Assembly (NCBI GenBank): GCA_937944055.1 | Contig: CALDZJ010000041.1 | Span: 1 to 42,422, forward strand | From: an uncultured Verrucomicrobiales bacterium | GTDB lineage: Bacteria; Verrucomicrobiota; Verrucomicrobiia; Verrucomicrobiales; Akkermansiaceae | Direction: 5' to 3' | Length of the DNA: 42,422 bases | Shown: positions 8,260 to 42,422 of the stretch, piece by piece | Layout of the letters: every line of letters begins with the position of its first letter | Numbering within the stretch: the first letter of the stretch is position 1 | Made by a program: the position numbers and the translations under genes | The notes under the pieces: generated by a model | Database searches by the model: none | What the model saw: only the letters and a program-made list of their open reading frames with translations | What the model was told of the DNA's origin: nothing

Positions 8260-8286
8260 GTGGCGGAGACCTCCGGTCTCCAAGCC
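8260..8286 (+). repeat. 27-nt palindromic (REP-like) element, copy A
   Basis: The foot GTGGC, arm GGAGACC, loop TCC, arm GGTCTCC and foot AAGCC follow the argG stop codon after 2 nt. It is identical over 27 nt to the copy at 37687 inside uvrA. As it lies in the argG 3' untranslated region just before the terminator, it would form an extra hairpin in the mRNA. Confidence 0.85.
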
Positions 8287-24825: not shown

Positions 24826-24852
24826 GTGGCCGCGCTTTCCAAGCGCCATGCC
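24826..24852 (+). repeat. 27-nt palindromic (REP-like) element, copy H
   Basis: Foot GTGGC, arm CGCGCTT, loop TCC, arm AAGCGCC and foot ATGCC. It differs from the copy at 38680 (inside uvrA) at 2 of 27 positions. It lies between divergent hisF and the transglutaminase gene, where hisF promoter elements must be. Confidence 0.8.
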
Positions 24853-36960: not shown

Positions 36961-39900
36961 GTGCCTAAGAAAGCTGCTCCCAAGCCCTCCCAAAACGTGA
37001 TTCACATCCGGGGGGCCCGTCAGCATAACCTCAAAAATCTCGATCTAGAGATCCCCATTGGCGAGCTCACGGTCATCACGGGGCCTTCTGGCTCTGGGAA
37101 ATCCTCACTTGCCTTTCACACCCTTTACGCCGAGGGCCAGCGTCGCTACGTCGAGACCTTCTCGCCCTACGTGCGCCAGTTCTTCGACCGCATGGATAAG
37201 CCCGAGGTCGACCGGATCGACGGCATCCCCCCCGCCATCGCCATCGAGCAAAAAAACACCATCCGCACCACCCGCTCCACCGTCGGCACTCTCACTGAGG
37301 TTAATGACTACCTAAAGCTTCTCTACCCGCGCCTCGCCACCGGCTACCACCCAGAAAGCGGCGAAGAAGTCCGCCCAGACAGCCCCCAATCCATCCTCAC
37401 ACACTGCCTCAAAAACTTCACCGATCAACAAATCCTCGTCCTCTTCCCCATCCCCGTCCCCCAAGACACCAAAGCGACAGACCTCTTCCCGTTTCTGAAT
37501 TCCCAAGGCTACCTTCGCATCTTTTTTAAAGGCGAGATCATCCGTACCGACTCCCCGCCCAAGCTACGCAAACTCCCCACCGAGGTCTGGATCATCCAAG
37601 ACCGCCTCAAGGTCTCTTCTCGTAATAAATCACGCCTCACCGAGTCCTTCGAGCAAGCCCTCGCCCTAGGCAAGGGCCGCTGCAACGTGGCGGAGACCTC
37701 CGGTCTCCAAGCCCACTCTTTCTCCACCTCCTGGGCTCCCCTCGTCAAGCCCACCTCCTCCCTCTTCTCCTTCAACTCCCCTCTCGGAGCCTGCAACAAC
37801 TGCCGCGGCTTCGGGCGCGTCATCGGCATCGACCTAGACAAAGCCATCCCGAACCACCTCCTCTCCCTCCGCGATGGAGCCATCAAGCCCTTCCAAGGTC
37901 AGCGTGGAGAAGATTGCCAGCGCGATCTCCTCCGCAACTGTAAAACCGCCGGCATTAATCCCAATGCTCCATGGAATGAACTCACCCCAGCACAGCAACG
38001 CTGGGTCAAGTACGGCGAACGCAGTAATAAATCATCCCTCTCCTCGCTTGAGCAATCAGAAACCCTGTGGAGTGAGGGCCGGTGGTATGGCATCCAAGGC
38101 TTCTTCGACTGGCTAGAAACCAAAGCCTACAAGATGCACGTCCGCGTCTTCCTCTCCCGCTACCGAGCCTACACCGAGTGCGCAGAATGCCAAGGCACCC
38201 GTCTCCAGCCAGACGCCCTCCACTTTAAGATCCTCGGTAAGGCCCTCCCAGAACTCTGGCAAATCCCCCTTGATCAACTTCTCTTCTTTTTCGAAGGAGT
38301 CGCCAGCGCTCATGCCCCGCTCGATAAAACCACGGAGTTAGTCCTCAATGAGATTACCTCCCGTCTCCACTACCTCTGTGAAGTAGGCCTCGGCTACCTC
38401 ACCCTAGATCGCCCCGCCCGGACCCTCTCCGGAGGCGAAATCGCCCGGGTCAATCTCACCACCTGTCTCGGCTCCGCTCTCACGCAGACTCTTTTCGTCC
38501 TCGATGAACCCACCGTGGGACTCCATGCCCGTGACATCGCCCGCCTCACCAAAGTGATGCACGATCTCCGCGATAAAGGGAACACCCTCGTCGTCGTCGA
38601 GCATGATGAAGCGGTGATGCGCCAAGCTGATCACCTCCTCGACATGGGCCCCCAAGCCGGCGAAGCCGGTGGCACCATCGTGGCGGCGCTTTCCAAGCGC
38701 CAAGCCAACTCCAAATCCTCTCTCAAAACATTCCCCAACTCCATCACCCTCCCCTACCTCCTCGGCACGAAGTCGATCCCCACCCCCAAGCACACCCGCA
38801 AACCCAAAGCCCACCTAAAAATCCGTAAGGGCTCCTGTCACAACATTGAAAACCTCTCCCTCGACCTCCCGCTCGGACTCTTCGTCTGCTTCACCGGAGT
38901 CTCCGGTTCCGGGAAATCAACCCTTGCTCACCCCATCATTTTTAACAATCTCGCTCGCCACTTTGGCATCACGATCGATGAGGCTCCAGCCCCTGCTGAG
39001 CTCTCCGGAATGGATGAGATTAATGGCGTCCAACTCATCGACCAATCTCCCCTTTCCCGCACTCCTCGCTCCACTCCGGCCGTCCTCCTAGGCGCCTTCG
39101 AGCATCTGCGCCAGCTCCTCGCCCTGACCAAAGCGGCAAAACTCAACGAGCTCACCCCTGGCTATTTCTCCTTTAATTCCGGCCCCGGACGCTGCCAACG
39201 CTGCGCTGGTAACGGCTTTGAGAAAGTGGAAATGCAGTTCCTCTCAGACCTCTACCTCACCTGCCCAGAGTGCAATGGCACCCGCTTCACTCAGGCCGCT
39301 GAATCCTATAAATACCACGGAAAATCGGTCGTGGATTTCCTCCGCTTCACCGCCACTGAAGCACTGCACTTTCTGGAAGGGATCGATGCCGAGACGAATA
39401 AAGAAAAACTCCTTCTGGGCAAAGCCCGCTTCGCCCTCCAGCCCCTTATCGAGACCGGACTCGGCTATCTACGACTCGGCCAAGCGCTCAACACCCTCTC
39501 CGGTGGCGAGGCCCAACGCCTCAAGCTCTGCCAACTCCTCACCTCCACCAGCGGCAGTGTGAACTCCCTCCTCATTCTCGATGAACCCACCACGGGGCTG
39601 CACTTCATCGACATTGAAAAACTCCTCACCATTTTCCACCGCCTCGTAGATATCGGATACTCGCTTGTCGTCATCGAACATCAAAGCGACGTCATCAAAA
39701 ATGCTGATCACGTCATCGAGCTAGGCCCCGCAGCCGGTCAAAACGGAGGCCAAATCGTTTACGAGGGCCCACCCGTGGCGGAGACTTTCAGTCTCCCCGC
39801 CCCTCCCTCTACCAAGCCGCCAAAATTAAAAATTAGAAAATCCAAACCGGAAATTTCCATCCACGGCCTCCGCCATCACAATCTCAAAAATATCGACGTC

Positions 39901-42422
39901 ACCATTCCTCACAATGAATTCGTAGTGGTCTCCGGCCTCTCAGGTTCAGGGAAATCCACCCTCTCATTCGATGTCATTTTCGCCGAGGGCCAACGGCGCT
40001 TCCTAGACTCCATGTCTCCCTACGCTCGCCAATTCGCGAGCCAACTCGAGAAGCCAGACCTAGATCTCATCACCGGCCTCCCGCCCACCGTCGCGATCGA
40101 GCAGCGCATCTCACGCGGGGGCGGAAAATCGACCGTAGGCACCGTCACTGAAATCTACCACTTCCTCCGCCTCCTCTACGCCAAAATCGGCATCCAACAC
40201 TGCCCACAATCGGGCGAGGCCGTCATCTCTCAAACCCCCGAGGCGATCGGTGAACAACTCGGCAAGCTCCTCAAAAAGCACACACAAATTCGCCTCCTCT
40301 CACCCGTCCTCAAAGCACGCAAGGGCTTCCACAACGAATACGCCGCCGCTGCTGAGAAAGCCGGTTTTGAAGAAATGTTCATTGATGGTCAACTCATCGA
40401 GACCGCCAACTTTCAGCCACTGGCCCGCCATAAGGCGCACGATATCGACTTCGTCGTAGCGGTGCTTTCCAAGCGCCAAGCCGGTTCAGAAATCTCTGCC
40501 CACCTCGCCACCGCCCTCCAATACGGCAAAGGCACCTTCCGCGCCCTCACCGCAAAAGGTGATCTCCACACCTTCTCCACCCAGCGCGTCTCGGCCACCA
40601 CCGGCGAATCTTTCGAGGAACTCGACCCCCACCACTTCTCGTTCAACTCACCCCGCGGTTGGTGTAAAACCTGCCGTGGTTACGGACACCTCACCAGCCG
40701 CACCCTAGATCTCAAAGGCTACAACTCCGAGGCCGAAGCCGAGATTCACGAAGAAAAACGCGCCGCCAAGGCCGCCCCTGAAGAACAAACAAGCTGCCCA
40801 GATTGCCACGGCGCGCGCCTCCGCGAAACCTCCCGCCACGTCTTTCTCCCCATGGCGGAGACCTCCGGTCGCCAAGCCAAAGCAAAAAGTAAAAAAGGAC
40901 AAGGAGACCAGAAGTCTCCGTCACTCTCCCTCCCCCAAATCACCGCACTCACGGTCAAAGACGCCCGATCCATCCTTCAATCCCTCAAGTTCAAAGGGCG
41001 CGACCTTGCCATCTCACGGGACATCACGCCCGAGATCATCCAGCGGCTCGAATTTCTCGATCACGTCGGCCTCGGCTACCTCCAGCTCGACCGCTCCGCC
41101 GTCACTCTCTCCGGGGGAGAATCCCAGCGCATCCGCCTTGCCGCCCAGCTCGGCTCGAATCTTCAAGGCGTCCTCTACATCTTAGACGAGCCCACCATCG
41201 GCCTTCATCCCCGCGACAACAGCGCCCTCCTTGGCACCCTCCAAGAACTCAAGAATAAGGGCAATAGCCTCCTCCTTGTCGAACACGATGATGACACCAT
41301 CCGCGCCGCCACCCACCTCATCGACCTCGGCCCCGGCGCCGGAGTGGAAGGCGGAGAAGTCGTCTTCGAAGGCAAGCCCACCAAAAAATCCGGCAGCAAA
41401 AATTCCCCCACCATCCAAGCCCTCCAAAATCCCCTCGCCCACCCCAGCCGAGGCGAACGCCGCAAAATCCTCAAAGCAAAAAAGAACTGGCTCCAACTCA
41501 AAGGCTGCACCGCCAACAACCTCAAAAATATCGACGTAGAAATCCCCCTCGGCCGCCTCACCGTCCTCACCGGAGTCTCCGGCTCCGGCAAATCCTCCCT
41601 CATGCGCGGCTGCATCAGCGTGGCGGGGACCTCCGGTCTCCAAGCCCAACCCACATCCAAAACCCCTCCCTACAAATCCGCCACCGGCTTCCAAAACTTC
41701 AAATACAAATACGAAGTGGACCAATCTCCCATCGGCAAAACTTCCCGCTCGTGCCCCGCCACCTACGTCAAACTCTTCGACCACATTCGCGCTCTCTTTG
41801 CTCAGCTCCCCGAGTCCCGCATGCGCGGCTACACCGCCTCCCGCTTCTCCTTCAATAATAAAGACGGCCAATGCCCCGAGTGCAAAGGCAATGGACGCAT
41901 CAAGCTGGAGATGGACTTCCTCCCGACCACCTGGATCGATTGTGAAGCCTGCCTTGGCGATCGCTATAACCCTGCCACCTTAGAAATCCGCTACAACGGC
42001 CTCACGATCGGTGACATCCTCCGGCTCAGCATTAAGACGGCAGCCGAGTTCTTCTCCGCTCATCCCAAACTACAAAAACCGCTCAGCCTCCTCGCCGAAA
42101 CCGGCCTAGGCTACCTTACGCTTGGCCAACCCAGCCCCACCGTCTCTGGTGGCGAAGCTCAGCGCCTCAAGCTCGTAACCCAACTCACGAAAGGCCGCCC
42201 AAAAATCACGGATGCCGGCCCGAGCAACACCAATCTTTACCTCATCGAGGAGCCCACCATCGGCCTTCACCAACAGGACGTAGCCCGGCTTAATGATGTC
42301 CTCCATCGACTCGTCGATGAGGGGCACACCGTCATCGTGATCGAGCATCACATGGACCTCGCCGCTGAAGCAGACTACCTCATCGACATCGGCCCAGAAG
42401 CAGGACCAAAAGGAGGCCAAAT
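36961..42422 (+). CDS. uvrA: double-length UvrA excinuclease subunit, 3' end outside the window
   Basis: Over 1,820 residues are in view from a GTG start, about twice the usual UvrA. Four ABC modules are present with Walker A motifs [27 protein letters not shown] and TGVSGSGKS, and signatures LSGGE (three times) and VSGGE. Zinc-finger cysteine pairs occur in each half ([56 protein letters not shown]). This is a tandem fusion of two UvrA, as known in Chlamydia, giving a covalent dimer that scans DNA for lesions with UvrB. The fourth module reads [10 protein letters not shown], with Glu replacing the Walker B Asp. Seven 27-nt palindromic elements lie in the coding sequence. Confidence 0.93.
37687..37713 (+). 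repeat. 27-nt palindromic element, copy B (in uvrA)
   Basis: Codes VAETSGLQA (residues 243-251) in frame. It is identical over 27 nt to the intergenic copy after argG. It sits in the variable loop that follows GKGR in the first UvrA unit. Confidence 0.85.
38680..38706 (+). repeat. 27-nt palindromic element, copy C (in uvrA)
   Basis: Arms GGCGCTT and AAGCGCC around TCC with the standard feet. It codes VAALSKRQA (574-582) in the loop following AGEAGGTI, where UvrA proteins normally read VVAEGTP. Confidence 0.85.
39775..39801 (+). repeat. 27-nt palindromic element, copy D (in uvrA)
   Basis: Arms GGAGACT and AGTCTCC around TTC. The last base of the left arm and first base of the right arm both differ from copy B, in a compensating way. 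It codes VAETFSLPA (939-947) at the junction between the two UvrA units. Confidence 0.8.
40456..40482 (+). repeat. 27-nt palindromic element, copy E (in uvrA)
   Basis: Foot GTAGC, arms GGTGCTT and AAGCGCC (one G-T pair), loop TCC, foot AAGCC. It differs from copy C at 2 positions. It codes VAVLSKRQA (1166-1174) in the place of the usual VVDRL strand. Confidence 0.8.
40852..40878 (+). repeat. 27-nt palindromic element, copy F (in uvrA)
   Basis: Foot ATGGC, arms GGAGACC and GGTCGCC (one mismatch), loop TCC, foot AAGCC. It codes MAETSGRQA (1298-1306) and is followed 19 nt later by an inverted copy. Confidence 0.8.
40898..40924 (-). repeat. 27-nt palindromic element, inverted copy F' (in uvrA)
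   Basis: On the minus strand: foot GTGAC, arms GGAGACT and GGTCTCC (one mispairing), loop TCT. With copy F it forms an inverted pair with both GTGG-like feet outermost, the layout called REPIN in other bacteria. The plus strand codes a Lys/Gly/Ser-rich insert here. Confidence 0.65.
41620..41646 (+). repeat. 27-nt palindromic element, copy G (in uvrA)
   Basis: One base different from copy B (arm GGGGACC, giving a G-T pair). It codes VAGTSGLQA (1554-1562) in the loop after the fourth Walker A helix. Confidence 0.85.

Follow-up and report, generated by a model that had tools for sequence, protein, structure and literature searches.

REPs are known from both uvrA genes of Opitutus terrae, a verrucomicrobium most of whose GTAG-20 elements carry a GTGG foot; in two Xanthomonas species recB holds REPs at roughly one position but of different kinds (Di Nocera et al. 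2013, PMC3733652). The same source counts RPE-4 and RPE-6 among the CGTC repeats, which it did not find beside tyrosine transposase genes. REPs also occur in frame inside tnpAREP genes, according to a study that set aside a few unexpectedly long proteins, regarding them as fused genes or faulty annotation (PMC6006769). The foot helps to choose the cleavage site, and in one of the systems studied cleavage persists with a GTGG substrate (PMC8266576). The elements described below share with GTAG-superfamily REPs a GTRG foot, a palindrome of 20–40 nt, several arm families per genome, occurrence as singlets and inverted dimers, and in-frame sites that include verrucomicrobial uvrA (PMC3733652). They differ from the O. 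terrae REPs in genus and arms, in the presence of six direct copies and one inverted copy in one gene, and in that several coding copies appear to replace native codons without added length (PMC3733652). REPs inside verrucomicrobial uvrA are thus already published and the core finding is of a known kind, contrary to the initial annotation of this DNA, which knew of no such description for the group. What appears to go beyond the published record is the location of RAYTs in frame inside housekeeping genes, and the gain of elements that usually proceeds without nine added codons.

The window analysed, a stretch of 42,422 nt, is contig C41 of a 2.59 Mb draft genome in 108 contigs (labelled G000; 92% complete). 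Its elements follow the architecture GTGGC-N7-TCC-N7-NNGCC, 27 nt in all, with a foot, 7-nt arms and mostly a TCC loop. The features are as follows.

8260..8286, + strand: intergenic copy, 2 nt past a stop codon and followed by a hairpin that looks terminator-like by eye
24826..24852, + strand: intergenic copy with arms CGCGCTT/AAGCGCC
36961..42420, + strand: uvrA2, a double-length uvrA paralogue; 1820-aa frame, open at the window end
37687..37713, + strand: element copy 1 (uvrA2 site 1), GGAGACC type, phase 0, peptide VAETSGLQA
38680..38706, + strand: element copy 2 (uvrA2 site 2), GGCGCTT type, phase 0, peptide VAALSKRQA
39775..39801, + strand: element copy 3 (uvrA2 site 3), GGAGACT/AGTCTCC, TTC loop, CCGCC foot, phase 0
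40456..40482, + strand: element copy 4 (uvrA2 site 4), GTAGC foot, GGTGCTT/AAGCGCC with a G-U wobble, phase 0
40852..40878, + strand: element copy 5 (uvrA2 site 5), ATGGC foot, phase 0
40903..40924, − strand: inverted uvrA2 copy, forming with copy 5 a doublet that is also present in G010
41620..41646, + strand: element copy 6 (uvrA2 site 6), GGGGACC type, phase 0

In profile searches the uvrA2 product matched the NCBIfam UvrA model with 1817 bits and also an 1809-aa UvrA model, the latter below its cut-off; a second homologue lies in a 955-aa frame on contig C108. The initial annotation had listed seven copies in uvrA and two in intergenic DNA (8260 and 24826), and all nine are present at a level above chance. 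The 22-nt GGAGACC core gave six window matches with up to three mismatches, as against none in 100 dinucleotide shuffles. A looser scan (feet with up to three mismatches, six of seven arm pairs) gave 20 matches, whereas 40 first-order simulations averaged 4.4 and reached at most 9, and for this reason its weak matches are taken to be mostly chance. Together with the reversed-pattern controls described below, these shuffles and simulations rule out chance palindromes as the source of the copies. The six direct uvrA2 copies do lie on codon boundaries, all in phase 0 of the frame 36961..42420. The annotation had also given the two arm families the same feet and loop, with a compensatory pair change in one copy; the change, from C-G to T-A, is found in the copy at 39775, and the TTC loop and CCGCC foot of that copy depart from the rule. 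Site 2 is also occupied in G010, G002, G005 and G009.

The family is dispersed over the whole genome. With up to three mismatches, the GGAGACC consensus has 20 copies in G000 and the GGCGCTT type five, while the reversed consensus patterns have no match in the whole genome. A free-arm pattern with at most one mismatch gave 27 matches against four for its reversed control; in at least five of these the arms do not pair, and such matches seem to be due to chance. When further diverged copies are included the total is about 30, so the genome-wide search with arm covariation that the initial annotation had proposed shows a pattern that is not confined to a few places. Inverted pairs lie on contigs C52, C53, C78 and C99 as well as in uvrA2. 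Roughly half of the copies are inside ORFs and so do not have the extragenic location expected of REPs; membership is not excluded by this, because published REPs include intragenic members (PMC3733652). Besides uvrA2, the ORFs concerned are alaS (three direct copies, one inverted), mutS, purL, an ABC-F ATPase gene (phase 1), an hrpA-like gene (inverted) and the 3' end of a TatD-like gene; alaS, mutS and purL were named from matches to solved relatives and the ABC-F, hrpA and TatD genes by eye.

Phase 0 is occupied by 12 of the 14 same-orientation ORF copies of G000 (uvrA2 six, alaS three, mutS, purL, ABC-F, and two at the 3' end of the TatD-like ORF), a count that leaves aside the four copies in opposite orientation (uvrA2, alaS, hrpA-like, TatD-like) and those in ORF ends judged spurious. 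The fixed reading frame previously claimed is therefore seen in uvrA2 (6/6), and genome-wide it is only a bias. GTGGC words in 24 window ORFs, chosen from 41, fall into phases 0, 1 and 2 in the numbers 24, 21 and 8. The phases of available targets were therefore rejected as a full explanation of the bias (12/14 versus 24/53, P about 0.002, a value to be read in the light of copies within one gene not being independent). Neither consensus element has a stop codon in any of the six frames, and their sites in uvrA2 and alaS are loops that vary among relatives. In addition to its GTGGC-type copies, alaS of G000 has an in-frame doublet of the leuS-type REP in one variable loop (L146:4817-4864).

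The foot-loop-foot pattern was then searched in 27 genomes of the same genus. In most of these the whole-genome count is hardly higher than that of the reversed control, and arm pairing served to separate copies from chance. The test covers 12 genomes other than G000, among the matches listed, with G007 (one row), G014 and the 21 G000 strings, which had been chosen as elements, set aside. At least six of seven arm pairs are formed in 34 of 126 distinct 27-mers, compared with a mean of 7.4 and a maximum of 16 when arms are shuffled. Such pairing is seen in 21 of the 25 matches listed for G024 (GGCGGTT, GGCGACT, GGAGACT, GGAGACC and two more arm types), in 10 of 19 for G006 (seven of them CGCGACC) and in 6 of 14 for G016 (GGAGACC/T); among the remaining nine genomes, five have one to three paired-arm copies each and four have none. 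Arms also differ between species at a single site. At uvrA2 site 6 they are GGGGACC in G000 and CGCGACC in G006, and at site 3 GGAGACT in G000 and CGGGGCG in G010. Loop B of alaS has CGCGACC arms in G006 and the GGAGC-GCGGGCG-TCC type in G000 and G010, and loops A and C of G013 carry a GTAAC-AGAGACT-CTC type. Across the genus, feet and loop appear to be kept while arms differ by species yet still pair, so that it is evidently the structure that is conserved and not the sequence. A different class of repeat inside genes was also encountered, of the type TTCAGAGTTCAGCGTTC, which forms coding repeats in the same alaS loop at loci L179, L177, L164, L178 and L176 (G002, G005, G006, G009 and G018, respectively).

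Each copy had been proposed to add nine codons, and an alignment of UvrA with that of close relatives had been suggested. The same loops do lack the hairpin in most species read, but their lengths are mostly not nine codons shorter. Measured between anchors, uvrA2 site 1 has 14 aa as against 13–16 in most relatives (G010 20, G016 28), site 4 has 19 as against 16–19, where the element takes the place of native sequence of comparable length, and site 6 has 24 as against 17–18 (26 in G006, which has an element). In alaS, loop A has 17 aa compared with 6–7 in most relatives, five others being longer, and loop C has 15 compared with 11 in most. The other places (uvrA2 sites 2, 3 and 5, alaS loop B and site D) were judged by eye. 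Compared with relatives, some 10 residues fewer are present at site 3 and some 23 more at site 5 with its doublet, and alaS site D equals G013 in length and is one shorter than G016. In purL, the stretch NPVDSHEV...GFN is 32 aa long in 24 of 24 genomes, including G000, which carries the hairpin there; no solved relative covers this PurL linker. The element core is common to G000, G005 and G009, with a diverged form in G002. In mutS, eight of 13 relatives read without the hairpin are equal in length, four are one residue longer and one is three longer, in a comparison that leaves out G016, G006, G020, G008 and G024. These length comparisons in uvrA2, alaS, mutS and purL rule out a nine-codon insertion as the general mode, and the proposal fails at most sites.

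The purL hairpin evidently stands in place of native codons with no added length, and mutS looks like a length-neutral replacement of the same kind. A live rival, especially for mutS, is that the insertions are ancient, date from the ancestor of the genus and have decayed in most species, so that the overwriting in mutS and purL is only apparent. Element-like peptides (VSQTSGLHA, ISETSGLHA) do occur at the mutS site of relatives, partly similar codons are present there in most of the 13, RQ is found at the matching place in some purL relatives, and uvrA2 site 2 is common to distant members of the genus. Decay is nevertheless unlikely as the general account, given the constant purL length in 24/24 genomes, 20 of which lack the ALSKRQ core, including the closer relatives G010, G013 and G016, and given that MutS is only two residues off the best-matching solved MutS (7ai6, which we take to be that of E. 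coli) at the element site. Replacement without change of length at several sites argues against a simple insertion model; length-neutral exchange would be easier to obtain from an annealed single-stranded REP or from template switching than from transposition.

As the initial annotation had advised, the genome was searched for Y1_Tnp (PF01797), and five loci were found in G000: the free-standing L002 with GGAGC-type REPs, L001 inside leuS, and three longer Y1 proteins. The GTGGC hairpin is absent from the readable flanks of all five, three of which lie near contig ends with flanks partly missing, and metH, host of a cognate-looking RAYT elsewhere, was not found in the G000 assembly. Three direct repeats beginning CCGTTATTTGTCTGTCTAATAAAAAGAAAGC adjoin a long Y1 gene (L004:1796-1982). 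In two relatives, the GTGGC type of hairpin does border a RAYT. The metH RAYT of G010 has a GTGGC-CGGGGCG hairpin on either side, one copy direct and the other inverted with a single change, and uvrA2 of G010 contains this hairpin as well. In G024 the metH RAYT, the sole Y1 match in that genome, has GTGGC-GGAGACT at one edge, and the GGAGACT arm type lies at two further places. After the metH RAYT of G013 come three copies of a hairpin of GTARC type whose loop is CTC, and a variant of this hairpin occurs twice in alaS. Among the loci compared, the RAYT-flanking hairpin of G020 is seen only at its RAYT; G006 combines a dispersed CGCGACC family with no more than two Y1 matches, both weak, and in G002 elements are present but no Y1 match. 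The leuS RAYTs of G000 and G010 and the metH RAYT of G010 are bordered by inverted REP copies.

We conclude, with a probability of roughly 0.8, that these 27-nt hairpins belong to the REP-like elements and are passengers of RAYT-type (TnpAREP) transposases, enzymes that act on single-strand DNA. With regard to the earlier claim of REP elements mobilised by RAYT proteins, the dispersed family, conserved feet, covarying arms and RAYT-edge hairpins of G010 and G024 speak for it, and the bare readable flanks of the G000 Y1 loci do not. Mobilisation of the GTGGC hairpins by such RAYTs would thus be expected, and since no Y1 locus of G000 shows the hairpin in its readable flanks, the cognate RAYT of that genome is probably missing, lost, unassembled or acting in trans. 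The RAYT would recognise the foot (GTGG/GTAG) together with the folded hairpin on one strand; foot, loop and pairing alone are kept, so that arm sequences are specific to the species. Entry may occur when a short single strand of REP DNA anneals at a replication fork or gap, or when the template is switched, so that at several sites the element would be copied over native codons rather than cleanly inserted. In this order of Verrucomicrobiota both passengers and RAYT genes lie inside open reading frames, and survival under selection would be limited to arrivals that are in frame and tolerable.

Elements of the Rickettsia type, spreading by an unknown, transposase-independent route with the RAYTs as an unrelated coincidence, have the same habit of in-frame palindromes, and the lack of a visible GTGGC-flanked RAYT in G000 would suit them. 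RPE-1, RPE-4 and RPE-6 are indeed palindromes in frame in protein genes, likened here by description and not by sequence (cited in PMC3733652). This origin is improbable, however, since foot (GTRG) and hairpin match those of REPs and hairpins border RAYTs in G010 and G024, and in variant form in G013. A function at the RNA level, under which the hairpins of uvrA and other genes would be maintained as structures in the mRNA and would be mobile only incidentally, would agree with the arm pairing seen in coding copies but is highly improbable, as almost identical copies are scattered over unrelated genes and over intergenic DNA and the hairpin is absent from the same loops in most species read.

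The RAYTs themselves lie, across the order, in frame inside housekeeping genes and lack their own stop codon. Single open frames of at least 436 aa hold host and RAYT insert together, so these RAYTs are not stand-alone genes. In the only leuS found in G000 (L001, C55:14779-17907) the RAYT lies in the editing domain, bordered by inverted GGAGC-GCGGGCG-TCC REPs. A leuS RAYT with inverted REP borders is present in G000, G010 and G026, where others have an editing-domain loop of about 13 residues; none was found at this site in 19 other same-genus genomes read (5/27 were not read). The metH RAYT is present in five of 17 genomes read. Among the 150 RAYT matches listed order-wide (288 genomes), 42 lie in open frames of at least 450 aa. 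Of 278 genomes with a leuS match, at least 20, in nine genera, have a leuS that bears a RAYT; this survey could miss diverged RAYTs, and 19 of the 20, plus G026, were read individually. Other hosts read are carB (4), hsdR (5), add (4), a glycosyltransferase (5), an ADH/GFO gene (2) and clpB (1). Pfam scans of eight fusions gave Y1_Tnp and host domains in one frame in all cases, with Y1 over the cut-off in seven, the exception being CarB L305 (PF01797, 21.2 bits versus a cut-off of 23); hosts beyond these eight were named by eye or likeness. The matches to the LeuRS editing domain and the CarB oligomerisation domain stop short at the insert. Among 12 inserts picked by the NHVH motif, a Y..NP-type motif is also present in 11 and absent from L316. 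The NCBIfam model for REP-associated tyrosine transposases matched the leuS insert at E 3.4e-21 (75.7 bits), the CarB insert at 67.0 bits and the free-standing RAYT L002 at 77.8 bits, all under the cut-off of 80. A predicted structure of the LeuRS–RAYT fusion has a mean pLDDT of 53, with 535 of 1046 residues below 50 and the RAYT stretch at about 56–85. Assembly chimaeras were rejected, as the in-frame RAYTs recur with open frames in many separate assemblies.

Like the RAYTs of REPtrons, these carry HUH and Tyr motifs and, in leuS and metH, are bordered by the species' own REP type (PMC6006769, PMC8266576); unlike them, they have no separate stop codon and are embedded as in-frame segments in LeuRS, MetH, CarB, HsdR and others. 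A literature search of partial coverage found no earlier report of RAYTs inside host genes. In inteins and homing elements, too, an entire enzyme gene is read in frame with the conserved host gene around it, at the same site in many species and with patchy distribution. The in-frame RAYTs resemble them in in-frame placement, shared site and patchy distribution, but have REP borders instead of an intein domain: no intein splicing domain was matched by Pfam in the eight fusions at E 0.001.

The dN/dS ratio of the RAYTs was 0.03–0.12 in nine of 11 pairs that could be computed and that of the hosts 0.04–0.20, rough values since several dS exceed 1; on this measure the in-frame RAYTs appear to be under purifying selection. 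In a RAYT tree, from which six of 25 free-standing loci were left out and in which L086 is a poor, long-branched row, RAYTs group by host gene (14 changes versus 38.3 when shuffled, 0/200 as low). Those of leuS form at least two lineages, one of them together with the metH RAYTs. On a host tree of 56 LeuRS, RAYT presence needs 15 changes (shuffled mean 16.6, 109/500 as low), 10 of the 15 being forced by starred branches and the empty rows being hand-chosen. On the leuS-RAYT tree, whose deeper forks are only moderately supported, four changes are required to place the eight RAYTs of genus g27. Between G069 and G116 the RAYTs are 79% alike and the hosts 71%. Repeated gain at one address, together with loss, fits these patterns and may describe the history of the RAYTs, and old parallel RAYT lineages are an alternative for which the same trees leave room.

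We tentatively propose, at somewhat less than even odds, that the RAYT–REP system of Verrucomicrobiales has adapted to coding space, with RAYTs living as non-splicing in-frame domains at homing-like addresses, above all the LeuRS editing-domain loop, and REPs overwriting codons in the manner of an annealed oligonucleotide. How REPs reach new sites is poorly understood, and the coding copies allow a codon-resolved comparison with relatives. Residence inside LeuRS, MetH, CarB or ClpB would explain the long retention of a single-copy transposase, because its loss must be in frame and its expression comes with the housekeeping gene. The RAYT sites would also mark natural domain-insertion points tolerated by these enzymes. 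Two further observations concern the LeuRS loop. In G004 (L201) the leuS gene has at this loop an insert of about 52 aa that is not RAYT-like by eye, and in G230 (L337) a REP-like remnant, GGTPEL, lies at a RAYT-free LeuRS site, a footprint-like trace such as would be expected after in-frame loss of a RAYT.
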